64,000 nt of DNA, taken from Renibacterium salmoninarum ATCC 33209. GTDB lineage: Bacteria; Actinomycetota; Actinomycetes; Actinomycetales; Micrococcaceae. Every line of letters starts with the position of its first letter. Position 1 is the stretch's first letter. Below, in pieces: positions 9,886 through 35,328 of the stretch. The notes beneath the pieces are model-generated. The model was not told where the DNA came from. It was given only the letters and a program-made list of their open reading frames with translations, and did no database searches. The stretch is taken from NCBI RefSeq assembly GCF_000018885.1, contig NC_010168.1, positions 1,426,001 through 1,490,000 of the forward strand. The letters are read 5' to 3'. A program made the position numbers and the translations under genes.

Positions 9886-10578
9886 TTAGTTACCATGAGT
9901 GGCCTGAGTACCGGCTGCAAATTGGCTAAAAATGTCTATTGCCAATCGAGATCGCTGCGATTCTTGACGGGCAAAATCCGCTAGAAATTCTGCGCCAGTG
10001 CCGGGCAGCAAATCCGCCGCCATTCCGCTGTCTAACCAGTCTTCGAGCAGCGGTTGGCTCAGCTCCAGGTGGAATTGCATTCCTAAGGCGCTGCCAAGGC
10101 GAAACGCCTGATTTGAGCAACCAGAGGTGCTGGCCAATTTTGTTGCACCATCAGGTAGCGATGCGTTATCGGTATGCCAATGTACGACGTCGATGCCGTC
10201 TAGGGCAGAAAATTCGCCAGTGGCCTGCACCGGGGCCACTCCGATCTTGCGGGTGGCCCGGTAATCAATTCTCGCGCCCAGTGCAAGCGCAATAATTTGA
10301 TGCCCCAGGCAGACGCCAAGCACCGGAATCTTTGCTGCGACAGCGTTCCGCACCAACTGTTGTTCCAAGCCAAGCGCCGGAAAAGATTCAACATCGCTAG
10401 CATCCATTGGCCCACCCATCAGCACCACACCGCAAAGCTCTGTGAGCGCGGGCAAGATCGGTTGATTCTCGGAGAGTAGGTTCCGGATTCGGTATTCGAC
10501 GCCCGCGTTGGTCAAAGCGGTAGCGATGAGCCCCGGGCCCTCGACGGAGACATGCTTCAAGATCAAGACGTAGGCCAT
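9886..10578 (-). CDS. Class I glutamine amidotransferase (GMP-synthase-like GATase domain)
   Basis: 230 aa. A stand-alone GATase-1 domain with the nucleophile elbow GVCLGHQ (Cys at about residue 94), an oxyanion-strand VLMGGPMDASD, and the catalytic His in MQFHLELS (about residue 172); the Glu of the triad follows the His by two residues. Such proteins hydrolyse glutamine to supply ammonia or act on gamma-glutamyl bonds. No synthetase domain is attached and the partner is unknown. It sits after the broken peptide transporter and before mnmA, with no sign of a shared operon beyond common strand. Confidence 0.8.
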   Translation of the reverse strand: MAYVLILKHVSVEGPGLIATALTNAGVEYRIRNLLSENQPILPALTELCGVVLMGGPMDASDVESFPALGLEQQLVRNAVAAKIPVLGVCLGHQIIALALGARIDYRATRKIGVAPVQATGEFSALDGIDVVHWHTDNASLPDGATKLASTSGCSNQAFRLGSALGMQFHLELSQPLLEDWLDSGMAADLLPGTGAEFLADFARQESQRSRLAIDIFSQFAAGTQATHGN

Positions 10579-10640
10579 GCAGATAATGCTAAGCCGCTAC
10601 CTCGATCAATGAGTCAGAATTGCAGCTCCGCGGAGCCAAT

Positions 10641-11777
10641 TCAGTCCACTTTTGTCGATGAGCTAACTAGCGATCGCGCAGTGTCAATCGTTGCTTGGCC
10701 CAAGACCCGCGTGCCCTGATAGAGCACCACGGTTTGGCCCGGCGCTACGCCGCGCAACGGATCGATGAGGTTGACCACCAGCAGCGGTGCGCCGTCGTCG
10801 TCTGTTGTCACAAAAGCTCGCGCTGGAACGGGGTCTCCGTGCGCACGCACCTGCGCCATGCAGTCAAATTCTGTACCCGCGCCTACCTCGGCTATCGGCT
10901 CACCAGCCCAGGAAATCTTGATGCCACGGATTTCGTTCATCGCGAGCATTTGCTCAGGACCGACCACAACGGTGTTTTCTTTCGGCCGGATTTCCAACAC
11001 GAAACGTGGCTTGCCATCGGCAGCAGGCGTGCCCAACTTCAGACCACGGCGTTGGCCTACCGTAAAGGCATTGGCACCCTCGTGCGTGCCGACTTTGGCA
11101 CCACTCTGGTCCAAGATTTCACCCGGTGTCATGTCGATCTTCTCGGCAAGCCAACCACGAGTGTCGCCGTCGGAAATGAAACAAATGTCATGGCTGTCCG
11201 GCTTCTTGGCAACGGACAGTCCACGTCGGTCAGCCTCAGCTCGAACTTCAGCCTTAGTTTGGGCATCGGATAACGGGAACATCGAGTGTTTGAGCTGCTC
11301 ATGGGTCAGTACGCCTAAAACATAGGACTGGTCCTTGGCCCAGTCGCTCGCACGGTGCAGTTCGTAGTTGCCATCTTCGTCTTGCGCCACGCGCGCATAG
11401 TGGCCGGTGCACACTGCGTCGAAGCCCAGCGCAATTGCTTTCTCTAGCAATGCTGCAAACTTGATCCGCTCGTTACAACGCATGCAGGGGTTGGGCGTCC
11501 GGCCAGCCGCGTACTCCGCGATGAAATCATCCACTACGTCTTCTTTGAAGCGCTCGGAGAAGTCCCACACGTAATACGGGATGCCGAGCTTCTCACAGGC
11601 CTTCCAGGCGTCTGTAGAGTCTTCAATGGTGCAACAGCCCCGACTGCCGGTCCGCAACGTGCCAGGCATCCTGGAGAGCGCTAAATGCACACCGACAACT
11701 TCGTGCCCTGCCTCAACAGTGCGGGCGGCAGCAACAGCGGAATCTACTCCCCCACTCATAGCGGCTAAAACCTTCAT
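10641..11777 (-). CDS. mnmA: tRNA-specific 2-thiouridylase MnmA
   Basis: 378 aa. It adds sulfur to U34 of Lys, Glu and Gln tRNAs, using ATP and persulfide sulfur ultimately from a cysteine desulfurase. The PP-loop SGGVDSA is at residues 8-14. The catalytic cysteines are in TPNPCMRCN (about residue 100) and DSHDICFI (about residue 200). The central FTVGQRRGL motif and C-terminal beta-barrel are present. ATG 11777 is used because [10 protein letters not shown] is the family N-terminus; the upstream open frame is part of iscS read out of frame. The cysteine desulfurase gene precedes it by 13 bp, so sulfur donor and acceptor are co-transcribed. Confidence 0.95.
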
Positions 11778-17440: not shown

Positions 17441-18502
17441 TCAATTACTCACATCTAAGCCAAATGGATCAGAAAAATATTCCGCACTTTGATGAGCTTC
17501 TGCGGCGCTGAGTTGGGCGTCATTTAGCAGCTCGTGGATCTCCGACTCAATCAATTCATTGGCGCGGCCAGTCAAAGCCACTACAGTGCCGGGTTGTTCC
17601 AACCCAGAGAGCCATTCACCGGTGTTTTCCAGCCACAATCGTGGCCCAATGCCACGCATGGCGATTCGTTGCCCTGGCACCGAAGCCAGCCACAGCCGCC
17701 CTCTAATCCAGCAACTGCCAGCAGCCAGCTCGGGTAGCGCAGAGCGCAGCCGTTCTGGATGCAGCGGTCGGCTGAGTTCGTGGCGAATGGTGCGGAAGAC
17801 GCCGTCGTCAGCACCTGAAGCGACTCGGACTTCACCGGGAGTCTGCCGAGCCATTGCTTCGCTGAGGTCAAAACAACCGGGCCGAACTTGCGCGGTTCGC
17901 CGGGCGACATTCGCGTGCGGCGCCAGCTCGCGCAACAATTCAAAACCAAGCGCTCGGTTGAGATGCCCCGGTTCACTCAGCGAATTCGCCAATGACGCTG
18001 CGGCAAGAACGGTATCTGCCTGTGCCACAGTTCCCACCACAAACTCATCCGAAGTGCGACGGTCTTTCGGATAACTTGTCATGCCAATTTCAGAAAGACT
18101 CCGTCGATCCCAGAGCTGATCTTCTAGCTCCGCGGGATCAACAACAAGCACCGCATTATCGATGCTGAACTCTTCCTCCACACCGGCATATAGCGCTTCG
18201 ATCACCATGTCTAGCTCCACTCCGGGAGGTAAAGCGAGCACCACGTGCGGTACATTCTCCCGAATGAGCCGGCGCACCGTCGGCAAAATTTCCAGTCGAA
18301 CCGTGCAGGATAAGCAACCATGCTCTAGCTGGCTACTGGCCCGCTCGTTGAGCTCACCATCGCGATAAATTCGACGCAAAACCGTGGCACCGTCCAAAAG
18401 ATCATGCACAACGACGACGGAACCAGGGTGCGTGCCAGAAAGCAGCTCTGCACCGCGTTGACGGCAGTGCAGATCGAGGGACGCCAAAAGGGATAGATGC
18501 AT
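17441..18502 (-). CDS. COG0523/CobW-family metal-chaperone GTPase homologue (zinc-starvation type)
   Basis: 353 aa. The family metal motif is present as GCLSCTVR (about residue 62; canonical GCxCC, here Cys-x-x-Cys). It is followed by [10 protein letters not shown], a central [11 protein letters not shown] strand and a C-terminal CobW_C-like domain ([16 protein letters not shown]). The N-terminus starts directly with [14 protein letters not shown] and shows no GxxGxGK(S/T) Walker A. GTP binding may therefore be lost, as in some actinobacterial members. It heads an operon with zinc-free rpmJ and is preceded by Zur-like palindromes, which points to zinc allocation during starvation rather than cobalamin synthesis. 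Confidence 0.85.
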
Positions 18503-18568: not shown

Positions 18569-19372
18569 TTATCGCGCCGCCAACGGAATGACATGTGGGC
18601 GGCCAGCAACGGGCTCCGCAACCACCGAGGCTTCCAAGCCAAAGATCTCCAAAAGCTGCGGCTCGGTCACCACATCCTGTGGCGTTCCGGAAGCGACAAT
18701 TGCCCCTTCTTTCATTGCCACCATGTGGTCCGAGTAGCGGGCCGCCAACGAAATATCGTGCAACACCATTAAAATTGTCCGACCCAGCTCACGGTTCAGC
18801 CGTTCAACAAGCTGCAACACTTCCACCTGATGCGCTAAGTCCAGGTAGGTAGTTGGCTCATCCAGCAACAAGATCTCGCTCTCCTGCGCCAGCACCATGG
18901 AAATCCAGGCGCGTTGCCGCTGCCCGCCAGAGAGCTCTTCAATCGGCACATCCGCCAGATCGGCAATATCTGTTGCCGCCAAAGCTTCATACACCGCCGA
19001 CTCATCGGTTTTAGAGAACTGCTGATACCAGTGCTGGCGAGGGTGGCGACCTCTGGCCACCAAATCTGCCACGGTCAGACCGGACGGCGCAGCCGGGGTT
19101 TGCGGCAAAATGCTCAGTCGAGTGGCCACTTGTCGAGTAGAAATCGAACCGATCGGCTTGTCATCGAGGTAAACCTGCCCTGTGCTCGGCTTAAGCAATC
19201 GGCCAAGTCCGCGCAGCAAAGTCGATTTTCCACAACCGTTCGGGCCGATAATTGCCGTCACCGCACCCGGTGCAATCTCCAAACTGAGGTTTGAAACCAC
19301 TTGCTTGCGGTCGTAGCCCAGGCTCACGCCTTCGGCGCGTAACGCGGCGCTCTGTACTGAGCCATTTTTCAT
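18569..19372 (-). CDS. Ferric-siderophore ABC transporter ATP-binding protein (FepC/FecE type)
   Basis: 267 aa. It powers ferric-siderophore import through the two adjacent FecCD permeases. Walker A GPNGCGKST (about residue 41), Q-loop LPQTP, signature LSGGQRQRAW, Walker B ILLLDEPT, H-loop VLHD. ATG 19372 overlaps the stop of the preceding permease gene (ATGA), so a longer upstream open frame is not used. It is the last gene of the operon 21459-18569. Its stop is 66 bp before the COG0523 start and the Zur-like site lies in that gap. Intact. Confidence 0.93.
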   Translation of the reverse strand: MKNGSVQSAALRAEGVSLGYDRKQVVSNLSLEIAPGAVTAIIGPNGCGKSTLLRGLGRLLKPSTGQVYLDDKPIGSISTRQVATRLSILPQTPAAPSGLTVADLVARGRHPRQHWYQQFSKTDESAVYEALAATDIADLADVPIEELSGGQRQRAWISMVLAQESEILLLDEPTTYLDLAHQVEVLQLVERLNRELGRTILMVLHDISLAARYSDHMVAMKEGAIVASGTPQDVVTEPQLLEIFGLEASVVAEPVAGRPHVIPLAAR

Positions 19373-20418
19373 AGCACCCTCCGCTGCGATCGCAACACTA
19401 AGTAGACCAAATAGGGTGCACCAACCACCGCAGTCGCGACGCCAACTGGCAACGCGACACCTAATGCGTGCGCTGAAATAGTGTCCGCTAACAACACAAA
19501 AACTGCACCGACTAAAGCCGAGGAAAATAACGGCGGATTGACCGACCGGCTCAATAATCGCGCCATTTGCGGACTGGCCAGCGCCACGAACGCAAGCGGC
19601 CCAGCGGTAACCGTTGCCAAGGAGGCCAACAGCGCCGCCGTCGTCAATGCAGCCAGCCGCAGCGGACCAACCCGCACGCCAAGTCCGACAGCGGTTTCGT
19701 CGCCAAGGCTGGCGAGGAACAACGGCCGGGCCAGTGCAAAGGCACAACCTAGAAGCAGCACGCCAAACCACAACATAGGCTGAACAAGCGCCCAGTCTTT
19801 ACCGTTGAGTGAGCCCATCATCCAGGTCAGAGCTTGGGCCGCATTGGTGACGTCGCCCAAAGTCAGCAACCAGGTGGTCACACTCGATGCCAAACCAGAA
19901 ACGCCAAGGCCCACTAAGACCAGGCGGAAGCCATCCAGTCCCCGCCGATAAGCTAAAAGATAGACGGCGACGCCGCACAAAAGCCCGGTTCCGAAAGCGG
20001 CCAGTGGCATTCCTACCGCGGCAGCAGCGCCGCTCAACCCGGCATAGCCGCCACCAGCCAAAACCAAAACTGAAACAGCGCCAAAGCCAGCACCACTAGT
20101 CACGCCCAACACATCCGGGCTAGCCAACGGATTTCGTGCGACAGTCTGGGTAATTGCACCTGAGACCGCCAAACACGCACCGACCAACACCGCAGCCCCC
20201 ATCCGGGGCGCCCGAAACTCAGTGCTGGCGAGATAGATTTTCGCATCGCTTTGATCGCCGAGTAGTGCCACAAAGACTTTGCCGTAAGGCAGTGCCGTTC
20301 CGCCGTAAGCAACGTGAAACGCCATCAATGCCAACACAAGAACAAACAGCACCGCCGAAATCAGCACCGCACGAGGTTTGAGCTGAAAGGAAACCGGCCC
20401 CAATCTGACTGTGGTCAT
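19369..20418 (-). CDS. Ferric-siderophore ABC transporter permease, FecCD family (FepG type)
   Basis: 349 aa, about ten predicted membrane helices starting with VLISAVLFVLVLALMAF. The FecCD family pattern is clear: RAPRMGAAVLVGACLAVSGA near residue 70, NPLASPDVLGVTSGAGFGAV, and the C-terminal GPLAFVALASPQMARLLSR containing the EAA-like ATPase contact loop. It pairs with the other permease (20449-21459, 30 bp upstream) to form the membrane channel. The 3' end overlaps the ATPase start. Intact. Confidence 0.92.
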   Translation of the reverse strand: MTTVRLGPVSFQLKPRAVLISAVLFVLVLALMAFHVAYGGTALPYGKVFVALLGDQSDAKIYLASTEFRAPRMGAAVLVGACLAVSGAITQTVARNPLASPDVLGVTSGAGFGAVSVLVLAGGGYAGLSGAAAAVGMPLAAFGTGLLCGVAVYLLAYRRGLDGFRLVLVGLGVSGLASSVTTWLLTLGDVTNAAQALTWMMGSLNGKDWALVQPMLWFGVLLLGCAFALARPLFLASLGDETAVGLGVRVGPLRLAALTTAALLASLATVTAGPLAFVALASPQMARLLSRSVNPPLFSSALVGAVFVLLADTISAHALGVALPVGVATAVVGAPYLVYLVLRSQRRVL

Positions 20419-20448
20419 GGCTGGACTCCGCTCACATTTGGACCCCGC

Positions 20449-21459
20449 TCACAGTTTGACCAGCCTTCGACGCCGAGCAAGCACCACGAAGAATGGCGCA
20501 CCAATAACGGCAAGCACTACGCCCGCAGATAGTTCGCCGGGTCGGGCGATCACGCGGCCAGCGGTATCTGCCAAGAGCACCAGGGCAGCACCGGTGAGCG
20601 CCGCGGTTGGCATGAGCCAGCGGTAATCGGCGCCAGCGAGAAACCTCGCCATGTGCGGAACTAACAATCCAGCAAAAGCAATCGGACCAGCCATGGTGAC
20701 CGCGCTTCCGGCGAGCAAAGTAATGGCCAAAATTCCCACGGTCCGGGCCCGAAGCACCGAGATGCCGAGCGAACGGGCGGATTCTTCGCCCAGGGCAAGT
20801 GCATTGAGTGCACCTGAGTTCAAGACAGCCAAAACAAATCCGACCACGAGGAACGGCCAAACATACCCGAGCACGTCATAGCGTCCGGCCAGTGAGCCAA
20901 TTTGCCAGAATCGCAGCGTGTCAAGCGCCTGATCGTTCAGCAGCACCACGGCAGAGACCAATCCGGCGCACAATGCGGTAACAGCGGCACCGGCAAGCAC
21001 TAAGGTGACCGGTGTTGCACCATTTCGGCTAGCGGAGCCGATGATGAAGACCAAAATACTGGCAATAAGTGCACCTACGAAGGCCAAAAGCGCCTGCGGC
21101 AAATAGCCCAACGGCCCAGCAAAAGCAGTAACCGCGACGATCGCGAGCGCGGCACCTTGATTGATGCCAAGTAGTCCTGGATCAGCAATGGGATTGCGAC
21201 TATGGCCTTGGACAAGCATTCCGGCCACGCCCAAGCAAGCGCCAACTATGATTCCGCTCAGAGTGCGCGGCACCCTGATCTGAGCGATGGTGACGTCCAT
21301 ATCAGTACCCGTGGGCGTGAAAATCGCATGAAAAGCTTGCGCAAAAGAAGATGATGCAGCGCCTAAACATACGCTAGCCAGCACCGCCAGAAGCAAAACT
21401 ACTGCCAGGACTCCGAGCAGCTTTCCGCGCGAACGCCGACCGGTAAAGGCAGCGGTCAC
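20449..21459 (-). CDS. Ferric-siderophore ABC transporter permease, FecCD family (FepD type)
   Basis: 336 aa with about nine to ten membrane segments. RVPRTLSGIIVGACLGVAGMLVQ and NPIADPGLLGINQGAAL are the typical FecCD signature, and GPIAFAGLLVPHMARFLAG the C-terminal coupling loop. It is the first gene of the minus-strand importer operon and divergent from the binding-protein gene at 21593. A DtxR/IdeR-like box (21520-21538) lies between them, so both arms are probably iron-repressed together. Intact. Confidence 0.92.
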   Translation of the reverse strand: MTAAFTGRRSRGKLLGVLAVVLLLAVLASVCLGAASSSFAQAFHAIFTPTGTDMDVTIAQIRVPRTLSGIIVGACLGVAGMLVQGHSRNPIADPGLLGINQGAALAIVAVTAFAGPLGYLPQALLAFVGALIASILVFIIGSASRNGATPVTLVLAGAAVTALCAGLVSAVVLLNDQALDTLRFWQIGSLAGRYDVLGYVWPFLVVGFVLAVLNSGALNALALGEESARSLGISVLRARTVGILAITLLAGSAVTMAGPIAFAGLLVPHMARFLAGADYRWLMPTAALTGAALVLLADTAGRVIARPGELSAGVVLAVIGAPFFVVLARRRRLVKL

Positions 21460-21519
21460 TCTGACGGTTTGTGGAGTACTGATGGTGCTTCCCTTCTGGA
21501 CGGCCTGTTACAATCTTTG

Positions 21520-21538
21520 TGAGCATAGGCTTACCTAA
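21520..21538. promoter_or_regulatory. DtxR/IdeR-like iron box between permease operon and binding protein
   Basis: TGAGCATAGGCTTACCTAA agrees at 15 of 19 positions with the actinobacterial iron-box consensus TTAGGTTAGGCTAACCTAA. It is 61 bp upstream of the fepD-like start on one side and 54 bp upstream of the binding-protein start on the other. It therefore can control both. The consensus is from memory. Confidence 0.75.
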
Positions 21539-21592
21539 GCTTCCAAGGTGTTTGTCCATTCTTGCAAACCTAAGTCCCGAAAAGGAAACCGC

Positions 21593-22612
21593 GTGATCTT
21601 CCGCTCGCTCCGGTCTAACCGGCTGATCAAAACTTTGGCCGGTACGGCCACCGCACTGGCTCTGTTGGCTACCGCAGCTTGCGGCGCGGCTAGCACGCCT
21701 GGCCAGTCCGCCTCCTCCTCCGCTTCCGGATCGGATGCGAGTTTTCCGCTGACGTTGCAACACGCAATGGGAAGCACCACCATTCCGGAAAAGCCGTTGC
21801 GGATCGTGGCACTTGATCCCAGCTACGTCGATGCAACCTTGCTGCTGGGCGGAAAATTGGTTGGTTACGCTCAATACCGGCAAGACCCGAAAAGCCCCTT
21901 CGCCCGGTACCTGGGTGATGTGAGCGAGCAGACCAAAGACGCCGTAAATGTCGGCACCATGGCTGAACCTAACTTGGAAAAAATCCTTGACCTGAAGCCA
22001 GATCTGATTATTTCGGCAAAGGTCCGTCAAGAGGCATTGTACCCGCAGCTAGCCAAGATTGCTCCGACCGTCTTTTCGCAAAGCACCGGACCAACGTGGA
22101 AGCAGAACATCGTGTTGCTTGGTACCGCCATGGGCGAAAAGGCTAAGGCCGAATCCCTGGTTGCCAGCTATGTCGCGGATGCGAAAAAACTCGGCGCAGA
22201 GATCCTCGCTAAAGACCCGGCAGCAACCTATTCCTTGGTTCGTTTTGTTGGCGAATCGACCGCGCGGTTGTACTCGTCTAAGTCATTCATCGGCGAAATC
22301 ATGAATGACATGGGCATCCCTCGCCCGCAAGGCGCACCTGATTCCACCGACCAAATCTTTGTGACACTGTCCACGGAAGAAATCCTCAAGGCAGACGCGA
22401 AGACCATTTTGGTAGCTACCTGGAAAACAACAGGCAGCGAAGGCGAAAAGGCAGTAGCACAATCGCAAGAGTTCGAATCCAATCCACTCTGGAGCCGGTT
22501 GACTGGCAAAAAGGTAGAGGTCGACGACGCCACCTTCGTTGCTTCTGTCAGTATCCAGGGCGCTAGGGCAGTAATGGCTGAACTCGCCAAGTCTTACGGC
22601 GTCACACAGTAA
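21593..22612 (+). CDS. Ferric-siderophore ABC transporter substrate-binding lipoprotein (FepB/FecB type)
   Basis: 339 aa. GTG 21593 is chosen because AAAGGA precedes it and the signal peptide then starts VIFRSLRSNR with helix TLAGTATALALLA and lipobox TAAC (Cys at about residue 32). A Ser/Ala-rich linker precedes a helical-backbone (class III) binding fold: KPLRIVALDPSYVDATLLLG, NLEKILDLKPDLIISA, and the closing MAELAKSYG. It captures ferric siderophore outside the cell and hands it to the FecCD permeases encoded divergently. A natural candidate ligand is the product of the NIS operon 2 kb away. Intact. Confidence 0.93.
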   Translation: MIFRSLRSNRLIKTLAGTATALALLATAACGAASTPGQSASSSASGSDASFPLTLQHAMGSTTIPEKPLRIVALDPSYVDATLLLGGKLVGYAQYRQDPKSPFARYLGDVSEQTKDAVNVGTMAEPNLEKILDLKPDLIISAKVRQEALYPQLAKIAPTVFSQSTGPTWKQNIVLLGTAMGEKAKAESLVASYVADAKKLGAEILAKDPAATYSLVRFVGESTARLYSSKSFIGEIMNDMGIPRPQGAPDSTDQIFVTLSTEEILKADAKTILVATWKTTGSEGEKAVAQSQEFESNPLWSRLTGKKVEVDDATFVASVSIQGARAVMAELAKSYGVTQ

Positions 22613-24016: not shown

Positions 24017-24095
24017 TGTAGAGGATTCTCAAACGACGCCCGGGATTCGTCCCTCTTTGCCAGCGCTCACCGCTGAATATGATTCGGAGTTCACC

Positions 24096-24888
24096 ATGAA
24101 GATTCAGGTTCTTTCGGCTATTGCTGGCGTGATCGCCGGGGCCGTTGCCCTCACTGGCGCGGGTCTACTGGTTGGCGCACCGGCTGAAGCTGTCGCCGTC
24201 GCGCCGCGAATTATTGGCGGCGAAAAGGTGGATTCCAATCCCTGGGTTGTTGAGTTAGGTATCTTCCTGGACAGTGCACACACCAAAGGATCAGGTTGCA
24301 CCAGTGAAGCAATCAACGATTCTTGGCTCATCACGGCAAAACACTGCGTCACCAAGCCAGATAATTCGATCTACATACCGAAAGACCTTTTTGCGGTTTA
24401 TTACGAATAACACCGCAGACATCAGAAACCGAGCTAAACGAATTGCCGTTGACAAAGTCGTCACTTGGAGCAGCGGGGACGTGGCCCTCGTCCACCTTGC
24501 CTCTGCTACCAAGCTCACCGCCTTTGCCCAGATCGCAGCCGAATACCTACCAAACTCCGGCGACACTGGCGTGGTGCAGGGCTACGGTTTCAGGCAACAA
24601 AACCCGGCTGAACAAGCAGATTGGCTGTACCGCGCCAATGTCTCAGTTATCGGCGCAAACACTGACCTCTCCGGCGGGTCAGCTATCAGAGTCGGGGGCG
24701 TTAATGGCATCTCTAATTTCGGTGACTCCGGCGGACCGCTAACCGTCAACGGCAAAAACGACCAAATTGTCGGCGTGAGTTCCTCTGGGGCAGACAACCC
24801 CACAAACGACATTCAGTCAACGGCAACTTACGCAAATATCACGGGCACCGAGGTGCGCAACTGGATCCGGAGCACCACCGGGTCCTGA
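24096..24888 (+). pseudogene. Secreted trypsin-like serine protease (S1 family), frameshifted
   Basis: ATG 24096 has GGAG upstream. A signal peptide (basic MKIQ, helix VIAGAVALTGAGLLVGA, site after APAEA) is followed by a short propeptide and the mature-type N-terminus RIIGGEKV. The triad is His in ITAKHCV, Asp in SSGDVALVH and Ser in NFGDSGGPL. The first frame stops at 24408-24410 after LFAVYYE. The continuation NNTADIRNRAKRIAV onward lies in another frame, so one indel at about 24400 separates His from Asp and Ser. No active enzyme can be made without recoding. Intact it would be an about 263-aa exoprotease. Confidence 0.88.
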
Positions 24889-24895: not shown

Positions 24896-26155
24896 CTAAG
24901 CAGGGGCACCCACGTGCAGGATTTCAGGCTGTGGATGCATCAGAAAATCGCGGTGCGAAATGTTCAGTGCGTATGCTCCTGCCAGGCCGAAAATCACCGT
25001 GTCCCCGGCGCTGATCTGCGAAACTGGCACGTCTCGGGCCAAAAGATCCTTCGGCGTGCACAGTTGACCGACAAAACTCACCGAGTTTTCTTGCAACGAA
25101 GCCCTTTCCCATGGTCGATCCCACTCGGCCACCTGCAGCACGGACAGCGGCTGGCTGTGCCCCTTTGCTGCTGGTGTGCGCAAATGGTGTGTTCCGCCTG
25201 AGCAAACCGCAAACCATTTACCGTGGCTCCGTTTGAGTTCTTGTACTCGGCTGAGGTACCAACCGGAGTAAGCGCTGATTGCCCTGCCCGGCTCAATTTG
25301 GAAGGTAAATTCGGGATACTTTTCGGCCAGCGAGTTTAGTCGGCTGCCGTAGTCACTCCAGTCAAAAGGCTCAGCAGTACGCAGGTAATCAACGCTCATC
25401 CCACCGCCAACATTCAGCTCGCTCAGCTCTAGGCCATGTTCAGCAGCAAACGACCTAGCCCAACGAGCAATATCTTCGGCTTCCGCAGCACCAGTGGCTG
25501 AGTCGACGCCGCTTGCCAGGTGCGCGTGCACACCATGCAATGTGATGTTTGGCATCGTTTCGAGCTGAGCGGCAGCAAGCGCCGCTTCTTCTGGATCCAT
25601 TCCGAAGGGACTTGGTACGCCACCCATTGTTAACGCTGCGGTGCTGCTGTTGCCTGAGGTGATTCCGGCCTGGATATTGACCCGGAACAGAATCTCAGCA
25701 GTAATTCCGGCCTCAGCTGCAAGCGCGTTGAGACGGCGCAGTTCATCGACGCTCTCCACGTGAAACCGATGAACGCCGGCCGCAAGCGCCGTCGAAAGCT
25801 CTGCATCGGTTTTTCCTGGTCCGCCAAAAATTAGTCGAGCATCCGGCAGTAAGGCGCGAACGTGCGTGATCTCTCCCCCGCTAGAGACCTCTAAACCATC
25901 CAGAATTTCCGCAGCAGTGCGCACCACTTCGGCATCCGGGTTGGCTTTGACCGCATACAAGATTTCGACGCCGCTGCCTCCTGAAGCGGGGTGGGAAAGT
26001 GCCGCTTTGATCGCGACCAAATGGCTACGCAGATGCGCCAAGTCGTAAACGTAGGCCGGAAGTCTATTTTGCTGCGCCAGATTCCGCGCAGCGTCGCGAA
26101 CGGCATCGGTGACATAAACGTCAGCAACTGGAACAGGAATGGCCGACGTTGTCAT
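24896..26155 (-). CDS. PLP-dependent decarboxylase of NIS siderophore pathway (PvsE-like)
   Basis: 419 aa, alanine-racemase fold III, related to diaminopimelate/ornithine decarboxylases and SbnH. PLP Lys in ILYAVKANPD (about residue 70), phosphate-binding LNVGGGMSVDY, C-terminal GQLCTPKDLL with catalytic Cys and FGLAGAYALNISH. In the vibrioferrin pathway PvsE decarboxylates O-citryl-serine to O-citryl-ethanolamine. It is last in an operon whose order equals pvsABCDE. ATG 26155 overlaps the stop of the NIS synthetase gene (ATGA). Intact. Substrate assignment is by synteny; a role like SbnH is the alternative. Confidence 0.85.
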   Translation of the reverse strand: MTTSAIPVPVADVYVTDAVRDAARNLAQQNRLPAYVYDLAHLRSHLVAIKAALSHPASGGSGVEILYAVKANPDAEVVRTAAEILDGLEVSSGGEITHVRALLPDARLIFGGPGKTDAELSTALAAGVHRFHVESVDELRRLNALAAEAGITAEILFRVNIQAGITSGNSSTAALTMGGVPSPFGMDPEEAALAAAQLETMPNITLHGVHAHLASGVDSATGAAEAEDIARWARSFAAEHGLELSELNVGGGMSVDYLRTAEPFDWSDYGSRLNSLAEKYPEFTFQIEPGRAISAYSGWYLSRVQELKRSHGKWFAVCSGGTHHLRTPAAKGHSQPLSVLQVAEWDRPWERASLQENSVSFVGQLCTPKDLLARDVPVSQISAGDTVIFGLAGAYALNISHRDFLMHPQPEILHVGAPA

Positions 26156-27882
26156 GATTGCGCCTGCTCAAAGTTGCGTACAAAGGGATTTGGGAACGGT
26201 GCGTATCCGGCCAATCGATCAGCCTGCCTGCTCCATCTCAGAAGCAAATTCGTTTTCGCGGGCAGCGCTACCCCTGCCAAAACTGCCTTGATTTCGGCTG
26301 GATTACCCAGCTCCGGTGCGATCTCGCTGAGCAGCTCGTAAGCATCGTGCCATAGCTGCGTTTCAAAACCATTGCCGGGTAGACCATTTGCTTGAGCCAG
26401 ATCGGCCAGCGCGCCAGCGACCTCAACCAAGTTGTTAACAAAAAGGCAGTATGCCACACGGTTCCAGGCACGAGACTCGTCGTAGAAGGCAGATTTTGCC
26501 ACTGCTGCAGACAGGCCTTGATCAGTTCCGGGACCGCGGCCGGTCACCAATTTGGTGCCTTCCATATCGCGCAAAACCACGCCAGCCGGCAACTGATCAT
26601 TGCCCAAAACCACAAGCACATTTTGCAAGTGCGGTTCTAAAACAATCCCGTGTTCGGCCCAAAGTGCCAGTACTGGCGGAACAAGATGCCGAAGGTAGCC
26701 CTGCCACCACTGCCGGGCCCAATCGGCCGTACTGCGCGAACCAGCCATCACGGCCAGGTCCGCCAGCCGGGTTTGGGTACCGCTAGGATCTGGTTCCGCA
26801 GCTGCCAGCGAACCGGCCAGATGAAGCCGCTCCCCTGGCAGCAAGGTGCTTTGAACTCCGTTCCGGACAATCACCCCGACGCCCTCCAACAAAGCATGCC
26901 GCGAACGGTCATCGGCGAGGCTATCCGGCAAACGCACACTTCGCGCGGCAGGTTCCGGCAGCACTGAAAACCGTGGAAACCGTGCGGAGATCTGGGCAAA
27001 AGACGGGGCCAGGAAATCGGTCAGTTCAACTGCGCCAGCCAATTCATACTCAGCGTTCTTGCGTAGGCAATTGGTAATCCGAACGTTCAGGCTCGTCTTC
27101 AGGAAGACATCAGACTCCGGTTGATACAAGGTTCGCACGCTCGCTGTGGGGAAGAGATCTGCGCCACCGGTACCCAAATAGCGCAGGGCTCCCGAGCTTA
27201 GCGCTTCCGTCAGCGCCGGCCCGGCCTCACCTTCAAGTAACAGTCGATACTGCCAAGGATGCACCGGCAAGGCACGATGCCCGGTTGGCAAGGCGAGATC
27301 AGCCAGCAGTTCACCAGTCTTGGCGTGCTGATCGAAACCTTCGGCATAATCCAGAACTAGTTCATCGGGAACAGCAAGCCATTGCATGGGGAAACTGGGT
27401 CTGGTCTCTGGCGAGTATCGTCGCCATTCGCGTAAATCTCCGGAACGCCATTTCGGGCTCGGATGCCGCGGATGCCCCGCGATCAGCGCTTGTTCGGAAT
27501 CCAGATAGTCTGCGGCCGGTTGGCTCACCTCGCGCGGTAGTTCAGCTGGCCTGGCAAGAGCGATATCTGCCAATCCATCCCGGCTTGCCAACAGTTGACC
27601 GGAAAATTCTTCATTGGATTCACCACTAAGCGCGGCCAGCTCAGCGCCAAGGACTTCGCCAAGTTCACGTAAGCCAAGTTCACGCCAGCTATCGTTGTCT
27701 GATTCCGGTGCTTCGCGGATCTCAACCCAGCCTTGGAGGCGGTGTGCACCACCGGCAGATAGCCGCTGCAATTCAACCCTGAGTGCATTTCCACTCCGCG
27801 GTAACCGTACCGTGAAATGACTCACGCCAGCGTCGAGGTCCTGGTCCGGGCCAGATACCTCCCGGATGAAACAGCCCAGCAA
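26152..27882 (-). CDS. NIS siderophore synthetase, IucA/IucC family (PvsD-like), start uncertain
   Basis: 576 aa from TTG 27882. The NIS core is intact: HPRHPSPKW, ALPVHPWQYRLLL, SVRTLYQ, KTSLNVRITNCLRKN, and EPHLQNVLV of the ATP/carboxylate site, then the ferric reductase-like C-terminal part. PvsD condenses citrate with serine. The open frame extends upstream through 33 coding-looking codons to the MFS stop at 27982 but has no ATG, GTG or TTG there. An ATG overlapping that stop (27980-27982) is in another frame and ends at a TAG after 28 codons. Either translation starts at a rare codon or TTG, or an indel has hit the original N-terminus. Confidence 0.85.
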   Translation of the reverse strand: MLGCFIREVSGPDQDLDAGVSHFTVRLPRSGNALRVELQRLSAGGAHRLQGWVEIREAPESDNDSWRELGLRELGEVLGAELAALSGESNEEFSGQLLASRDGLADIALARPAELPREVSQPAADYLDSEQALIAGHPRHPSPKWRSGDLREWRRYSPETRPSFPMQWLAVPDELVLDYAEGFDQHAKTGELLADLALPTGHRALPVHPWQYRLLLEGEAGPALTEALSSGALRYLGTGGADLFPTASVRTLYQPESDVFLKTSLNVRITNCLRKNAEYELAGAVELTDFLAPSFAQISARFPRFSVLPEPAARSVRLPDSLADDRSRHALLEGVGVIVRNGVQSTLLPGERLHLAGSLAAAEPDPSGTQTRLADLAVMAGSRSTADWARQWWQGYLRHLVPPVLALWAEHGIVLEPHLQNVLVVLGNDQLPAGVVLRDMEGTKLVTGRGPGTDQGLSAAVAKSAFYDESRAWNRVAYCLFVNNLVEVAGALADLAQANGLPGNGFETQLWHDAYELLSEIAPELGNPAEIKAVLAGVALPAKTNLLLRWSRQADRLAGYAPFPNPFVRNFEQAQS

Positions 27883-27981
27883 TATATGGCTAGATTGCAG
27901 GTCCGGCTGAGTAACTGACGAGTCGGTTAGTTCTTCGCTGAGTTGGTCTTGAGGTGTGGGGAGGATGATGATTCCTATCCA

Positions 27982-29226
27982 TCAGTCATTGGTCGGCAGC
28001 AGAGCTGGTGGGTTCACGGTAAAAAGTCGGTTGAGAATAAAGATCAAAACGATCGCGACGGCGAAGGAAAGCAGCAAGGGCATGCCAAGACCGCCGCCAA
28101 TCAGCGCCGAAGCACCAAGCCCAGCGATGACGGCACCGCCTTTAGAAAATGCTTCGATTCGGCCGAAGAGTCGTCCTGGCTGGTGTTGTCCGGCTAGGGC
28201 AGCAGCCACCACTGAAAGTGCGGATAAGCCCAGCGTCAGCCCAGCCCCGAGTAGCAATCTGCCCACAATGAGCAAAATCAGACCAGGCGTTCCGGGCCAT
28301 TGCAGGGAAAAGAATTGCGGAACTGCAGCCAGTGCGACGGCGGCAAAGGCAATGATCAGACCAGCCTTAGGCCGATCTTTGACCAGCCGAAAACCGAACG
28401 GGGCGCAGAGTAAGTAGCAAAGGTGCGGCAGCGCGAACAACACGCCAGCCATCGCCAGCGGAAGCTCCGGGGACACCCCGGTTACCAACGGGATGAAGTA
28501 GGGAAAAGTCACCACAGTTGCTAAAACGAAGCCAGCTTCGGCCAGACAGTACCCCAGCACGGAAAGTGGCGGTTTGCTGACCGCAACAGGTTCGTTGGGT
28601 GATTTCTTAGTTTCGGCATTCTTCGCCCCGCTCGGCAGCCGGCTGGTCATAATCGCAGCAGCCAGTGGCAATATCGCTGCGGCACCGTACATTTGGCGCA
28701 CGTCGAGAAAAGTAGATAGCAAGCCGGCCGCAACTGGCGCGGCAGCAAGCGATACCCGCGCGGCGCCCTGCATCAACACCAATGACGAAGCCAGCGCCTG
28801 GCCGCTCAAGCCACTCGCCAAATACGCGGTGCTAGCGGCAAAAGTACCGCCTAATAGCCCTTGCAGGGTCAAAGCGAGCACGAGCATGGGAATGTTCTGC
28901 GCTACCGCAGCCAACCCAAAAGCCAGACAAAGTCCCAATTGAGCTCGAACCAGCAGCGGCTTACAGCCGTAACGATCGGCCAATCGGCCCCATATCGGTG
29001 CGGATATCGCGGTGCACAACGTGGGAAGAATATAGAGCAACCCGGCCCATCGTGCATCCGGATCGCCCAGCTCTGGGAGTAATTTAGGTAAGAACGGCGG
29101 CAGTCCGAGCGCGGCAAAGGACGTTGCACACAGCGAAACTGCAATAGCAAAGACGTGATGCCGTTTTAGCCCAGCACTTTCCTCTCCGGGCCGTACCTCG
29201 GTGCTTGCGATCTGCGAATTACTCAT
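27982..29226 (-). CDS. MFS siderophore exporter (PvsC-like)
   Basis: 414 aa with 12 predicted helices. Motif A appears as GRLADRYGCKPLLVRA (about residue 75). The N-terminus is cytoplasmic with an acidic stretch (STEVRPGEESAG), and a charged loop (SGAKNAETKKSPNEP) joins the two halves. It lies between two NIS synthetase genes, the position of pvsC, so it very probably exports the finished siderophore. ATG 29226 overlaps the upstream synthetase stop (ATGA). A longer in-frame start at 29292 would overlap that gene by 70 bp and is not preferred. Intact. Confidence 0.88.
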   Translation of the reverse strand: MSNSQIASTEVRPGEESAGLKRHHVFAIAVSLCATSFAALGLPPFLPKLLPELGDPDARWAGLLYILPTLCTAISAPIWGRLADRYGCKPLLVRAQLGLCLAFGLAAVAQNIPMLVLALTLQGLLGGTFAASTAYLASGLSGQALASSLVLMQGAARVSLAAAPVAAGLLSTFLDVRQMYGAAAILPLAAAIMTSRLPSGAKNAETKKSPNEPVAVSKPPLSVLGYCLAEAGFVLATVVTFPYFIPLVTGVSPELPLAMAGVLFALPHLCYLLCAPFGFRLVKDRPKAGLIIAFAAVALAAVPQFFSLQWPGTPGLILLIVGRLLLGAGLTLGLSALSVVAAALAGQHQPGRLFGRIEAFSKGGAVIAGLGASALIGGGLGMPLLLSFAVAIVLIFILNRLFTVNPPALLPTND

Positions 29227-30974
29227 GCCTGCACACCGCTCCGCAAGTAATTTGGCCCGGTCCGCAAGTAATACTTGTTGATGTCTTGGCAACCAAGCCG
29301 AGCTTTGGGCAATAACGTGCCCGCGGTGACCATCGCTTTGATCGGAAGATAGTCTGCGTCCAGAATGCGTTCGCGTAGTAACTGGGCCGCTGCCGCCGAG
29401 TCAGGATCGTTTGGATCTGTCCAACGGTCCATGGCCGCAATCAGCTCGCGCCGAGCTAGCGCGAATAGCCGTTGCCGCCGCGCTCTGTCCTCACCCGCTT
29501 GCGCAATGATGGGCGTGGCAATACACAGGTGCAAAGTAATGGTGGTGAACATATCCGCGAGCTCGCCTGGATCGGAAATGAAAATCCTGCTGTCGTTGAA
29601 GGTTTCCGCCGGAAGTTCCCGGCCCAGAGCGGCGCTGAGTCTGCGCCGATCTACCCTGGCGCCGTCGTTATCTTTGTAGAGCAACTGCAAACCTGGCGAA
29701 ACGATCGTGATGTTTTGCTGATGCGACTCCAGCGCAACTCCGTAGCGTAGCCACAGCGCCAAATGCCAGTCGAACATCGTCCGGAAGTAGCTTTCAAACC
29801 AGCTAGCGGCATCGCCTTCAGAAAGCCGATCAAACAAGCTTGCCTGCTCGTCAGCCGCGCTGGGATCCGGAACATGTAGCGCAGCCAGCGGCAGCGTCAA
29901 TTTACCGGACAGCTCGGCTGGATAGCTGCGCACTAGCAGGGCAAGCGAATCGTCTTGACTGCCTAGCCAACGGGATTCGTCGGCCAGTAACACGCGCTGT
30001 GCCAGCTCTGGCTCGCGGTCGAGTATCTCTTGGAGTAGCTGCTGCATCGTCGCGCCATCGGCCAGGTCGGCCGCCTTGATCCCACGCCGGTTCTTTCGGC
30101 CTAGCGTGGCGATCGGCAACGGCATCTTCAAATGCGTGAGTGGCTCATCAGTGAGCAGCACCGTGCGAATCGACAACGTTGGTGCCACGGTGGCGCCAGT
30201 ATGCGGCTTTTGCCCAGGCACAGTTACCGGACCACCATTGGCAATCGTCAGCGGATGCACCGGGACCGCAATCATTGACGGCTCAGCATCTGGATTCACC
30301 TCGACGGCGTTTGGCCACCAAGCAGGTAGCGGTCCAGCCAGTTGTGCTGCGAGCGCTTCAGAAAGCTGAACCGTTTCGCGCTGAACCGTGATCCATTGCA
30401 GTTCGAACTCAGGTAAGTGCTCCGGGGTATAGCGCTGCTCCTGCAGGGAATCAATACCCCAGCGGCAAGAACCCGTTGGGTGCACTGGATGACCGTCCAA
30501 GGTGGCCAGCGCCTCAAACTGTAGCGCGCCGTCGAAGCCGGTATCTGGGCGTTTCTGCGCGCGAAGCTTGGCTACCAGCTGCTGACTAACTAATTCCTGT
30601 GCCGTCAACGTCAGTTCGGTCTGCAAGGCTTCTAAACGAAACTCTTGCCAACCCGCCTCCGCTTCACGGTCCAACTTCGCTGGGTCCGGTGCCAGTGCGG
30701 CGAAAAGCGATTCCAGATCAGAAATCTCGCTGACATTTTCGCCGTCAGTGACGTGAATGACGGCATCCGTCAGCGCGTAATCTGCTAAGAAGCCATCCGG
30801 GCGCAACGATAGCGACAAAGTACGGCTCCCAGCCAGCGGCACTAACCAGCGATGCAATTCCTCGGCATTAGCGCCACTTTGCGCAAACCATCCGGTAGAA
30901 CGAAGCCCCGCGTAATCTTCCCGGTACAGCGTGTTGAGAATCTTCCGCACTAAGGTGCCGCTAACAGCGCTCAT
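29223..30974 (-). CDS. NIS siderophore synthetase, IucA/IucC family (PvsB-like)
   Basis: 583 aa, intact. Motifs: GHPVHPTGSCRWG (about residue 160), IAVPVHPLTI, TLSIRTVLLTDEPLTHLKMPLPI, and ESHQQNITIV of the catalytic C-terminal half, DRRRLSAALG near residue 450. In vibrioferrin synthesis PvsB joins the citryl-ethanolamine half to the alanyl-2-oxoglutarate half. It sits second in the operon, overlapping both the ATP-grasp gene upstream (30971-30974) and the exporter gene downstream by ATGA. Assignment to the PvsB rather than the PvsD role is by gene position. Confidence 0.88.
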   Translation of the reverse strand: MSAVSGTLVRKILNTLYREDYAGLRSTGWFAQSGANAEELHRWLVPLAGSRTLSLSLRPDGFLADYALTDAVIHVTDGENVSEISDLESLFAALAPDPAKLDREAEAGWQEFRLEALQTELTLTAQELVSQQLVAKLRAQKRPDTGFDGALQFEALATLDGHPVHPTGSCRWGIDSLQEQRYTPEHLPEFELQWITVQRETVQLSEALAAQLAGPLPAWWPNAVEVNPDAEPSMIAVPVHPLTIANGGPVTVPGQKPHTGATVAPTLSIRTVLLTDEPLTHLKMPLPIATLGRKNRRGIKAADLADGATMQQLLQEILDREPELAQRVLLADESRWLGSQDDSLALLVRSYPAELSGKLTLPLAALHVPDPSAADEQASLFDRLSEGDAASWFESYFRTMFDWHLALWLRYGVALESHQQNITIVSPGLQLLYKDNDGARVDRRRLSAALGRELPAETFNDSRIFISDPGELADMFTTITLHLCIATPIIAQAGEDRARRQRLFALARRELIAAMDRWTDPNDPDSAAAAQLLRERILDADYLPIKAMVTAGTLLPKARLGCQDINKYYLRTGPNYLRSGVQA

Positions 30975-32200
30975 GAGGTGACCGTCCAGCTGTTCGCAGC
31001 GACAAAGCCGGCTATCGCAGCCTGTACTGCTTCATCATCTGCACCAATGCCTTGAACTGCGGATAAAAAATCCCGTTTCGTGTTGCCCGCTGTGACCGTG
31101 CTGCCGAGTTCTTGCAGCGGGCGGTTGAGTAACCGGACGCCGTTTTCCAGCCGAGTGTCCGACGTCGGCGGGGCGCTGATTAGCTGCCCCGGATGTTCCG
31201 CAAAGACGTACTCGACGCGGGCAGCTTTCTTTGCCGCACCAGCGACCGCCGCACGTAACTCGCTACTCAGCGTGGCACCTTGATGTAGCGAAATTACTTC
31301 AGCGAAAAGGTCCACTCCCAATACCTGAGAAGTGAATGCCTCCATGCCGCCGCCGATTAGCCGGTAGTTCACTTCGATAATCCGAGCTCGTTCACGCTCT
31401 GAAACAAATTCAGTGTGGCAGGCACCAAAGTTCACCCCGAGCGCGGACAACTGAGCGTTCAAGCTATCAACTACTGACGCTGGTAGTTCAGGGTGCCATT
31501 GGTCTCGCAGCTCATGAAAGAACGGCGGCGCGCTGAGCTCAGTGTGCCAGCTGCCAAACGCCACAGTCTGATCGTCGTCGCCCAACGTGTCGTAGCTATA
31601 AAACTTTCCGGTCAGGTATTCCTCCACAACCAGCGTTACCGGTCCGCGGCTCTTTCTGATCTCGGTAATCGCTGCGATGAATTCAGCCGGGTGAGAAATG
31701 TAAGCCACATCTTCGGTAGCAACACCTTCTCGAGGCTTGAGCACCACCGGATATGGCAGTGTTTCCGCAACTGAAGTTGGCTCCTGATCCGGGCGGAGTT
31801 CGAGGCTAAACACCGAGTCCAAGCCGGCGTCGGCGAGTGTTTGCCTAGTCAGCGCCTTGTTTTTGCAGCGCAGTGCGGCGCGCCAATCTTTTGTTGGCAA
31901 ACCTAGTAGCTCGGCTGCCGCTGAAGTACTGAATTGCAGATGGTCACTATTGCTAAGCAGGGCCTCAGCTTTGCCGAAACGTGTTCTGAGCCCCGCGATT
32001 CGAGAGGCGACATCAGCTGGGTCATTGACATTAGCAAGCTCTATAGCCGCCGGTTTGTGGTCGCTGCCCTGGTACTCCTGAAGATGATCTTCCACTCGGT
32101 CCGTGAGTAAGATCACGGACAAACCCAGCCGTGCTGCGGCGGGCAAGAAACCTTCCGTTACGGAAAATGTCGGTTTCATGGCGGTGAGATAGATAGGCAT
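30971..32200 (-). CDS. ATP-grasp ligase of NIS siderophore pathway (PvsA-like)
   Basis: 409 aa. An N-terminal pre-ATP-grasp domain (SVILLTDRVEDHLQEY, LLSNSDHLQFSTSAAAELLGLPTKDW) is followed by an ATP-grasp domain: CKNKALTRQTLADAGL, YPVVLKPREGVATEDV, LVVEEYLTGKFYSYDTLG and the Mg-binding RIIEVNYRLIGGGM. PvsA ligates alanine to 2-oxoglutarate. The ATP-grasp plus two NIS synthetases plus decarboxylase set separates this cluster from staphyloferrin and aerobactin clusters. First gene of the operon; a DtxR-like box is about 95 bp upstream. Intact. Confidence 0.87.
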   Translation of the reverse strand: MPIYLTAMKPTFSVTEGFLPAAARLGLSVILLTDRVEDHLQEYQGSDHKPAAIELANVNDPADVASRIAGLRTRFGKAEALLSNSDHLQFSTSAAAELLGLPTKDWRAALRCKNKALTRQTLADAGLDSVFSLELRPDQEPTSVAETLPYPVVLKPREGVATEDVAYISHPAEFIAAITEIRKSRGPVTLVVEEYLTGKFYSYDTLGDDDQTVAFGSWHTELSAPPFFHELRDQWHPELPASVVDSLNAQLSALGVNFGACHTEFVSERERARIIEVNYRLIGGGMEAFTSQVLGVDLFAEVISLHQGATLSSELRAAVAGAAKKAARVEYVFAEHPGQLISAPPTSDTRLENGVRLLNRPLQELGSTVTAGNTKRDFLSAVQGIGADDEAVQAAIAGFVAANSWTVTS

Positions 32201-32505
32201 TGCTGCGAGCAGTCCTTCAATAAACGATACGGGCCGGGGCTATTTCGATGTCTCCCACACGGATCTTAACCAGCTAAGTAATTCATCTATTTAGTTTAGT
32301 TATGCTTACCTAACTAAATGCTTTCGTCGGTCACTATACACGGTTCTTCTGAACAGCAAATCCAGAAAGTCAAACCACTCCGTGAGTCAGATCAGATTCC
32401 CTCTGATCTGGCCCCAGTGGTCAGTTACGTCTCACAATTCGTCCGCCACGGCCCGGATAAGCGACAATTCACTAAGGCAACATTGCACCTTGGAGGGGGC
32501 GAAAT
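32201..32505. promoter_or_regulatory. Divergent control region of the siderophore operon, with DtxR/IdeR-like box at 32295-32313
   Basis: This 305-bp gap holds TTTAGTTATGCTTACCTAA (32295-32313), which agrees at 15 of 19 positions with the iron-box consensus. The surrounding AT-rich stretch (ATTTAGTTTAGTTATGC) is a likely promoter. A short plus-strand open frame here (32318-32569) has no homology signal and overlaps the real start of the YbdK gene, so I see no gene. GGAGGG at 32493-32498 is the Shine-Dalgarno of the downstream gene. Confidence 0.7.
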
Positions 32506-33793: not shown

Positions 33794-34870
33794 TTAGAGG
33801 CTGATCTGCGTCACTGGCAGTGATGAATCTGGCGCGAAACTCAATCCTGACGGCTGCACGCCACGTTGCACGAGCTGCGCACCCAAAGCTGCGACCATCG
33901 CACCGTTGTCGGTGCACAGCGAGATCCCCGGCACCAAAAGCTTGATGCCCGCATCACTGGTCCGCTCAGCAAGCAATGCCCGCAGCCGGGAATTTGCTGC
34001 CACGCCACCGCCCAAAAACAGGGTTTCAAGTCCTTGCTCGCGGCAAGCCAAAACCGCCTTCGAGGTGATGCCGTCAAGCACCGCCTCTTGAAAGGACGCG
34101 GCAATATTTGCCCGTGGCGTCTGGACTCCTGCCGCTTCGTCCTGTTCCACCCGCCGTGCGACGGCGGTTTTGAGGCCAGAGAAGGAGAAGTCGTAGCGGT
34201 GCGGCCCGGGCGCCTCTGGGGTGCCCATGTATTTTGGTGCTGTTAGTCCCCGAGGAAAAGCCACCGCGCGGGGGTCGCCTTCTCGGGCGAGCCGATCGAT
34301 CGCGGGCCCGCCAGGATAATCTAGGCCAAGAATTCGGGCGATCTTGTCGAAGGCTTCGCCCGCAGCGTCATCGATCGTAGCGCCAAGCAGTTCGACGTCG
34401 TCGGTCAGGCTGCGCACCCGCAAGATTTCAGTGTGCCCACCAGAAACCAATAGTGCGCCAAGGTTTTCCGGCAACTCACCAGATTCCAGCCGCAATTCCG
34501 CATCGAGCAGGCCGACGCCAACGTGCGCCACTAAGTGATTAATCGCGTATAGCGGCTTACCGGTAGCTAGCGACAGCGCTTTAGCTGCACAAACACCAAC
34601 CATTAGTGCGCCGGCCAAACCCGGACCAGCCGTTACCGCAATCGCATCGATCTCATCCAGCGTCACCCCAGCGGTGCGCAATGCTTCGTTGAGCGTGGGC
34701 ACCATGGCGTCCAAATGCGCGCGAGAGGCAATTTCCGGAATCACGCCGCCAAACCGCACATGCTCTGCCATTGACGAAGAAACGGTATTCGCCAGCAGTT
34801 CGGTACCACGGACTATGCCAACTCCGGTCTCATCACAGGAGGATTCAATGCCAAGGATAAGCGGTTTCAC
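33794..34870 (-). CDS. tsaD: tRNA t6A37 threonylcarbamoyltransferase subunit TsaD
   Basis: 358 aa. It transfers threonylcarbamoyl to A37 of ANN-decoding tRNAs with TsaB and TsaE. ASKHA fold: [14 protein letters not shown] at the start, metal-binding His pair in HLVAHVGVG (family HxxxH at about residue 112-116), [17 protein letters not shown], and [11 protein letters not shown]. Together with tsaB, tsaE, rimI and alr it forms a minus-strand operon with ATGA overlaps (34867-34870). All three members of the TsaB-D-E complex are encoded here and intact. Confidence 0.96.
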
Positions 34871-35328
34871 AAGGCGGCCAGCTCTGCTCGCATGATCAAA
34901 GCGTCAACACCATCACGGTAATATCGCGGTCGAAGGTGAATCTGCTCAAAACCGAATCTGCGGTAAAGACGTTGTGCGCGCGGGTTATCCGCCCTGACTT
35001 CCAGGAGCACCTCACGGGCTTCCCTGCGTAGCGCTTCAGCCAACAGCTCGGTCAGCAACGCCGTGCCAATTCCTCGACCTTCAAACTCCGGCAAAACCGC
35101 AATAGTTTGTACGTCAGCAACCGGGACCAGGCACATCAAACCGGCGTAGCCCACGGTGCTGATCTCGCCGTCGAACTCTTCGTCAGCAATCACGTAATAG
35201 CGGCTGGGTTGCGCGAGTTCGTCCACAAACATCTGCCGCGGCCAAGCATCAATGGGAAATAAAATGCCCTCCAGCTCAGAAATCGCCTCAACGTCCGCCG
35301 CCGTCATCCGCCGGAAGTGCGTACTCAC
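34867..35328 (-). CDS. rimI: N-alpha-acetyltransferase RimI (GNAT family)
   Basis: 153 aa. A GNAT fold with acetyl-CoA loop [15 protein letters not shown] (R/QxxGxG/A, about residues 84-98), a preceding strand [11 protein letters not shown], and the typical end [17 protein letters not shown] [21 protein letters not shown]. RimI acetylates the N-terminus of ribosomal protein bS18, with broader substrates in actinobacteria. Its place between tsaB and tsaD is the conserved actinobacterial order. It overlaps both neighbours by 4 bp. Confidence 0.93.

Follow-up and report, generated by a model that had tools for sequence, protein, structure and literature searches.

Vibrioferrin is composed of citrate, ethanolamine, alanine and 2-oxoglutarate. 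The closest described systems to the locus studied here are the pvsABCDE clusters of Vibrio and of Marinobacter algicola DG893 (L049), which we take to be a vibrioferrin producer, and the five-gene cluster of Xanthomonas (L042, L044), presumably the one named xssABCDE. The enzymes of the achromobactin (AcsD) and staphyloferrin B (SbnC, SbnH) systems belong to the same families and have similar folds, but these systems have three synthetases of the NRPS-independent siderophore (NIS; NRPS, nonribosomal peptide synthetase) type, diamine supply genes, and no match to an ATP-grasp enzyme in five reference loci. Here, we describe five genes in a stretch of 64,000 nucleotides of Renibacterium salmoninarum ATCC 33209 (positions 1426001-1490000 of a single contig of 3,155,250 bases, which was also the genome searched), hereafter the window. 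We interpret them, with a probability of about 0.87, as a vibrioferrin-type (pvsABCDE) NIS operon. This reading relies on gene content and order, homology, tree placement, conserved motifs, the predicted folds of the A and B proteins, and an iron box. The product is most likely vibrioferrin or a close analogue, as judged from the encoded proteins.

Organization of the operon

The five genes and the box occupy the following positions.

30971-32200, minus strand: PvsA-like ATP-grasp amide ligase, 409 residues (Pfam ATP-grasp_4)
29223-30974, minus strand: PvsB-like NIS synthetase, 583 residues (Pfam IucA_IucC and FhuF)
27982-29226, minus strand: PvsC-like exporter of the major facilitator superfamily (MFS), 414 residues (Pfam MFS_1); the list of open reading frames (ORFs) has an earlier TTG start, 29292
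26152-27882, minus strand: PvsD-like NIS synthetase, 576 residues from the TTG, open frame to 27981 (Pfam IucA_IucC and FhuF)
24896-26155, minus strand: PvsE-like fold-III pyridoxal phosphate decarboxylase, 419 residues (Pfam Orn_Arg_deC_N and Orn_DAP_Arg_deC)
32295-32313, minus strand: IdeR/DtxR-like iron box TTAGGTAAGCATAACTAAA, upstream of pvsA, 94 bases to the start codon

The genes thus lie on one strand between 24896 and 32200, in pvsABCDE order and with the MFS gene between the two NIS genes. Three of the four junctions (A-B, B-C and D-E) are 4-base overlaps, and the C-D junction has no overlap. No stop codon interrupts any of the five frames, and the GC content, measured in 2-kb steps, is 56-58%, the same as in the surroundings. 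A sequence-only reading of the window had named the same five families on one strand, joined mostly by ATGA overlaps and preceded by an iron box; ORFs and Pfam matches confirm the families and the arrangement, and the box is present.

Comparison with reference pvs clusters

Every one of five reference pvs clusters has matches to all five window proteins. Identity is 31-45% to the clusters of Vibrio, Marinobacter, Xanthomonas and Cupriavidus, and 28-45% over 50-99% of the length when seven Pseudomonadota references are considered, one of which lacks E. The closest relatives in this comparison are the proteins of Rhodococcus oxybenzonivorans (pRB29), with 51-58% identity. The MFS protein is 36-44% identical to PvsC-type proteins of Pseudomonadota, and its top NCBIfam match, far below the cut-off, is the rhizoferrin exporter FslB. 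The decarboxylase shows 39-45% identity to PvsE of Pseudomonadota and 56% to that of Rhodococcus. The two phyla have 69, 78, 89 and 101 columns in common at 85% in A, B, D and E, respectively, while 8, 7, 4 and 8 positions separate the actinobacterial from the Pseudomonadota clades. These comparisons bear out the earlier expectation of matches to PvsA-E and XssA-E, with congeners standing in for V. parahaemolyticus PvsA-E and X. campestris XssA-E, which were outside the fetched loci. A table in PMC5812596 gives RefSeq accessions for the V. parahaemolyticus proteins.

The gene order was examined in pvs loci from a scan of genome contigs in which a PvsB alignment served as the query; of 555 confirmed loci (594 stretches), the best 80, ranked by similarity to a Vibrio protein, were retained. 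In this set, 63 of 67 Pseudomonadota loci carry A-B-C-D-E on one strand, the others being A-B-C-D (three) or D-E-A-B-C (one). The pvs gene set and order first proposed for the window is therefore that of most of these loci. In addition, a tblastn search of plasmid records with the window proteins led to annotated pvs-order clusters in Vibrio sp. THAF190c, Pantoea soli (one gene annotated PvsA), Cupriavidus necator pHG1 and two Rhodococcus plasmids, plus an unannotated Embleya locus.

The window operon resembles the Vibrio and Marinobacter clusters in its five gene families, their order and strand, and its NIS clades, at 31-42% identity. It differs from them by its IdeR-type box, found in neither of two Vibrio/Marinobacter-type loci tested, and by its neighbours, which include an ABC (ATP-binding cassette) binding protein and, among those examined, no TonB receptor. 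The Xanthomonas loci have the five genes in the same order, at 31-45% identity to the window proteins. They also carry, about 3 kb away, a match to an aldolase/citrate-lyase gene that is adjacent to the operon in the Rhodococcus clusters; a citrate-lyase/SbnG-type aldolase was not found in the R. salmoninarum genome by a search that had no positive control.

Placement among NIS synthetases

Eight other NIS loci were compared, with type names assigned from gene content: staphyloferrin-B-type (Agrobacterium, Bacillus badius, Methylocystis), achromobactin-type (Sodalis, Thalassospira), aerobactin-type (Halobacterium), desferrioxamine-type (Streptomyces), and a Sinorhizobium locus whose record is unannotated. 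None of the eight has a match to the window ATP-grasp protein at an E value of 1e-3, as the sequence-only reading had expected for staphyloferrin and aerobactin clusters. The first synthetase (B) scores 50-73 bits or nothing in these loci versus 177-513 in pvs clusters. The second (D) scores 73-229 versus 232-607 bits and is less discriminating than B, because achromobactin-type loci reach 216 and 229 bits.

Trees were built from 26 of 86 pvs-type loci, hand-picked for spread. The NIS tree, built by a quick method from 79 proteins, places the 31 PvsB rows, window B included, together on one side of a branch with a Shimodaira-Hasegawa-like approximate likelihood ratio (SH-aLRT) of 99; the neighbours of this branch are two sbn-type and two ach-type rows. 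Window D groups with actinobacterial PvsD (SH-aLRT 99); next to this group are PvsD of Pseudomonadota and two AcsD-type rows. Both synthetases stand apart from the staphyloferrin-B-, aerobactin (IucC)- and desferrioxamine (DesD)-type rows. Hence B is placed with PvsB and D with PvsD/AcsD-type proteins, and the staphyloferrin- or desferrioxamine-type placement that would have spoken for another product was not seen. The top solved-structure relative of D is AcsD, with 192 bits versus 115 for IucA, and D keeps the motifs of the AcsD alignment. In the decarboxylase tree, the window protein falls within the actinobacterial PvsE clade (100/100). The PvsA tree splits the two phyla (100/100); having no outgroup, it is not a test of membership.

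Iron box and neighbouring uptake genes

The box has two mismatches to an IdeR-like consensus that we drew up, and none of 300 shuffles of the upstream stretch gave as good a match. Genome-wide, the pattern has 16 matches versus 8 for a reversed control, which is weak as proof, so that the position of the box and its occurrence in relatives speak for it more than the score does. In a test that covered 13 of 16 actinobacterial loci (L081, L085, L091 and later loci being outside it), a box with at most two mismatches precedes pvsA in seven, two of which have an identical Rhodococcus sequence; one further locus has a box with three mismatches and five have none. The box is absent from all three Pseudomonadota loci tested. 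Five sites of the genome match with one mismatch: one before a heme oxygenase gene, one before a gene for a siderophore-interacting FAD (flavin adenine dinucleotide) protein, two neighbouring sites between the frames for a binding protein and an enterochelin esterase, and a fifth elsewhere. The fifth precedes a short MFS-type frame; a flavin mononucleotide reductase and a matrixin are encoded close by, and one of the broken NRPS loci is a few kb away.

ABC uptake genes are located 2.3 kb from the operon.

21548-22612, plus strand: siderophore-binding ABC component (Peripla_BP_2; top NCBIfam match Fe(3+) dicitrate-binding, below cut-off; 47.6% identity to the Rhodococcus counterpart)
20449-21459, minus strand: FecCD permease 1 of the uptake system
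19369-20418, minus strand: FecCD permease 2 of the uptake system
18569-19771, minus strand: FecE-like ABC ATPase, with the domain from about residue 143 and an ORF start that overlaps the permease

The true start of the ATPase is probably later than the ORF start. The uptake proteins show 42-53% identity to their counterparts next to Rhodococcus cluster L012, and the binding protein is the probable uptake partner of the operon product.

Next to these genes, a CobW/MRF-type GTPase gene (17441-18502, minus strand) matches Pfam cobW in part, scores far under its NCBIfam cut-off and is possibly degenerate. Between the operon and the uptake genes, a trypsin-like protease gene (24057-24888, plus strand) consists of two overlapping frames (24057-24410 and 24274-24888) that divide the Trypsin domain; it is probably a frameshifted pseudogene.

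Distribution in Actinomycetota

Among the best 80 of 555 loci, 13 are actinobacterial, a share that gives no estimate of frequency. Four have A-B-C-D-E on one strand, eight A-B-D-E and one A-B; in the eight A-B-D-E loci the MFS gene is unmatched, and one of them has E on the opposite strand. Close to R. salmoninarum, a PvsA-like protein occurs in one of seven genomes of the genus, its own. PvsB-like proteins were found in 3 of 59 relatives (its own, one strong and one weak), in 8 of 396 genomes of the order at 1e-40 (its own, another from the same family, and six that belong to a single genus and all have a stop codon within the match), and in 3 of 396 genomes of the phylum (its own and two of one genus). 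The cluster of the strong relative is A-B-C-D-E, with an aldolase/citrate-lyase match divergent from A. Protein searches, in which about 8000 candidates were scored each and the best 120 listed, also gave, among the matches listed, PvsA-, PvsB- and PvsD-like proteins of a very close relative (P0001, P0121 and P0241) that are 94-95% identical to those of the window and probably lie on one contig.

Pvs-type clusters or proteins are seen in Rhodococcus (pRB29, pRWAY01), in Sinomonas, Arthrobacter and Psychromicrobium, and in Streptomyces loci, some with boxes and ABC uptake genes alongside. The two Rhodococcus clusters (L012, L010) are plasmid-borne beside metal-resistance genes, and one adjoins a Tn3-family transposase, which suggests that they are mobile. 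In view of these counts and of the Rhodococcus plasmids, the vibrioferrin-type pathway in Actinomycetota appears to be a patchy and sometimes plasmid-borne trait. The avs cluster of Streptomyces avermitilis is called ‘vibrioferrin-like’ in a passage of PMC9394381; like the window operon, it is an actinobacterial cluster with NIS and decarboxylase genes, but it is listed there as three synthetase components plus a decarboxylase, and we liken the two by description, not by sequence. An excerpt of PMC7385001 lists a Streptomyces region with 18% similarity to vibrioferrin. Vibrioferrin-type operons are thus not new to Actinomycetota, although they are rare near this genome. The sequence-only reading knew of no characterised actinobacterial producer; many members of the phylum carry such proteins or clusters.

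Proposed pathway and competing readings

We infer the substrates, product and regulation of the operon, and its link to the uptake genes, from vibrioferrin chemistry. The PvsD-like enzyme would adenylate citrate and couple it to L-serine, and the PvsE-like enzyme would decarboxylate citryl-serine to citryl-ethanolamine. On the other arm, the PvsA-like ligase would couple 2-oxoglutarate and L-alanine, and the PvsB-like synthetase would connect the two halves. The MFS protein may export the product, and the ferric complex may re-enter through the FecCD permeases with the help of the binding protein and ATPase encoded nearby. An IdeR/DtxR-type repressor would turn the operon off when iron is sufficient. 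A passage of PMC5577590 assigns the PvsA, PvsB and PvsD steps differently, and calls the enzyme functions untested at the time of its writing.

Several observations weigh against the assignment to the vibrioferrin type. Identity to the four Pseudomonadota references is only 31-45%. In the NIS tree, the fork between PvsD and achromobactin AcsD-type rows is open, so that the two are unseparated. The split of PvsE from sbn/ach decarboxylases is weak (78/79; a single group in 6% of the 200 bootstrap trees), and a Saccharibacter PvsE falls on the sbn/ach side. A search of the uptake genes (18569-22612) for an IdeR-like box found none. In the PvsD frame, TTG 27882 is the first ATG, GTG or TTG (stretch 27882-27984); since the 95%-identical relative P0241 starts 28 residues earlier, this PvsD start is tentative. 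Finally, at columns where at least 95% of the other rows have one residue, the window proteins depart at 4 of 54 positions in A, 6 of 72 in B, 1 of 78 in D and 7 of 99 in E, and two of the B departures fall in the HP motif.

A staphyloferrin-B-type or achromobactin-type cluster would account for the nearness of D to AcsD, for the predicted fold of B, nearest to SbnC, and for the decarboxylase, whose top solved-structure relative, with 272 bits, is 6knh, which we take to be SbnH. We consider it very improbable. The genome has two IucA/IucC genes, both in the operon, whereas the five reference sbn- or ach-type loci have three full-length ones each; it is on this count and the lack of an ATP-grasp match in the reference loci that achromobactin was dropped. 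For staphyloferrin B, the NCBIfam SbnC and SbnF models scored 53.7 and 64.9, where the cut-offs are 700 and 900 (SbnF was rerun genome-wide), SbnA and SbnB were not recognised among 20 neighbouring ORFs, and Pfam recognised no diaminopropionate/diaminobutyrate gene among them. Desferrioxamine and aerobactin were also set aside, as the window synthetases are apart from DesD- and IucC-type rows and no hydroxylase occurs among the same ORFs. The only GNAT protein among these (34867-35328) lies amid tsa tRNA-modification genes, and Lys_Orn_oxgnase gives genome-wide partial matches of at most 36 bits, at a cut-off also passed by 12 of 14 control genomes.

That the operon is decaying and no longer functional, in a genome that is losing genes, is improbable. 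The lack of a standard PvsD start codon before TTG 27882, the split trypsin-like gene next door, the fragmented NRPS loci elsewhere and the extra departures at conserved columns agree with decay, but the five frames are open, a close relative has A, B and D proteins that are 94-95% identical, and passages of two reviews (PMC9495620, PMC7602803) report that R. salmoninarum uses or produces siderophores.

A third reading keeps the same pathway logic and alters the PvsA/PvsB arm, giving a vibrioferrin analogue in which the amino acid or the keto acid is a different one; it is possible, though unlikely. PvsA T162, G284 and K375 and PvsB S169, A301 and D303 are shared with the Psychromicrobium row, at positions where at least 95% of 99 (A) and 94 (B) other rows have another residue. 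The window has four departures in A and six in B, so that three in each protein are shared, and Psychromicrobium is also altered at one more of the B positions; the comparison covered the A and B changes, with the Psychromicrobium E outside it. PvsB 169 lies within a conserved motif that, as we take it, holds the AcsD active-site histidine (numbering counted from the AcsD alignment). The stem branches of the window-Psychromicrobium pair are 0.76, 0.46 and 0.36 in A, B and D. These shared changes leave room for an altered building block. However, other actinobacterial rows depart as much in places (medians 0, 1, 1 and 1, maxima 6, 7, 2 and 7 in A, B, D and E), few positions split the clades of the two phyla, and E departs as well, so that the pattern reaches beyond A and B and the case for an analogue is weakened. 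The narrower proposal that the Renibacterium/Psychromicrobium lineage makes a new analogue, with the citrate-ethanolamine half kept and the PvsA/PvsB arm built from another alpha-keto acid or another amino acid, is likewise unlikely; if true, this fish pathogen would have a private siderophore. Overall, the five-protein matches, the NIS trees and the gene order support vibrioferrin or an analogue as the product, as the sequence-only reading had suggested.

Siderophore routes in R. salmoninarum

Searches for IucA/IucC and condensation domains found the operon as the only intact siderophore biosynthesis set, the two other loci with condensation domains having fragmented NRPS frames; further biosynthesis families are possible. 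The operon names a molecule to seek by mass and offers enzymes and uptake genes for testing, which makes this lineage's siderophore directly testable. Siderophore activity of R. salmoninarum is reported in review passages that give no structure (PMC9495620, PMC7602803), and in passages of a review that covers both Renibacterium and vibrioferrin, the vibrioferrin text concerns Edwardsiella tarda. Vibrioferrin is described in a passage of PMC5577590 as a weak, light-sensitive iron binder, which makes its use by an intracellular fish pathogen a separate question.

The two NRPS loci are the following.

Genome 2962500-2982400 (L127), locus positions 6598-10943: condensation and adenylation domains over separate frames
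Genome 108500-124000 (L128), locus positions 6771-11469: condensation and adenylation domains over separate frames

L127 is near FecCD, binding-protein and enterochelin-esterase frames and two IdeR-like boxes.

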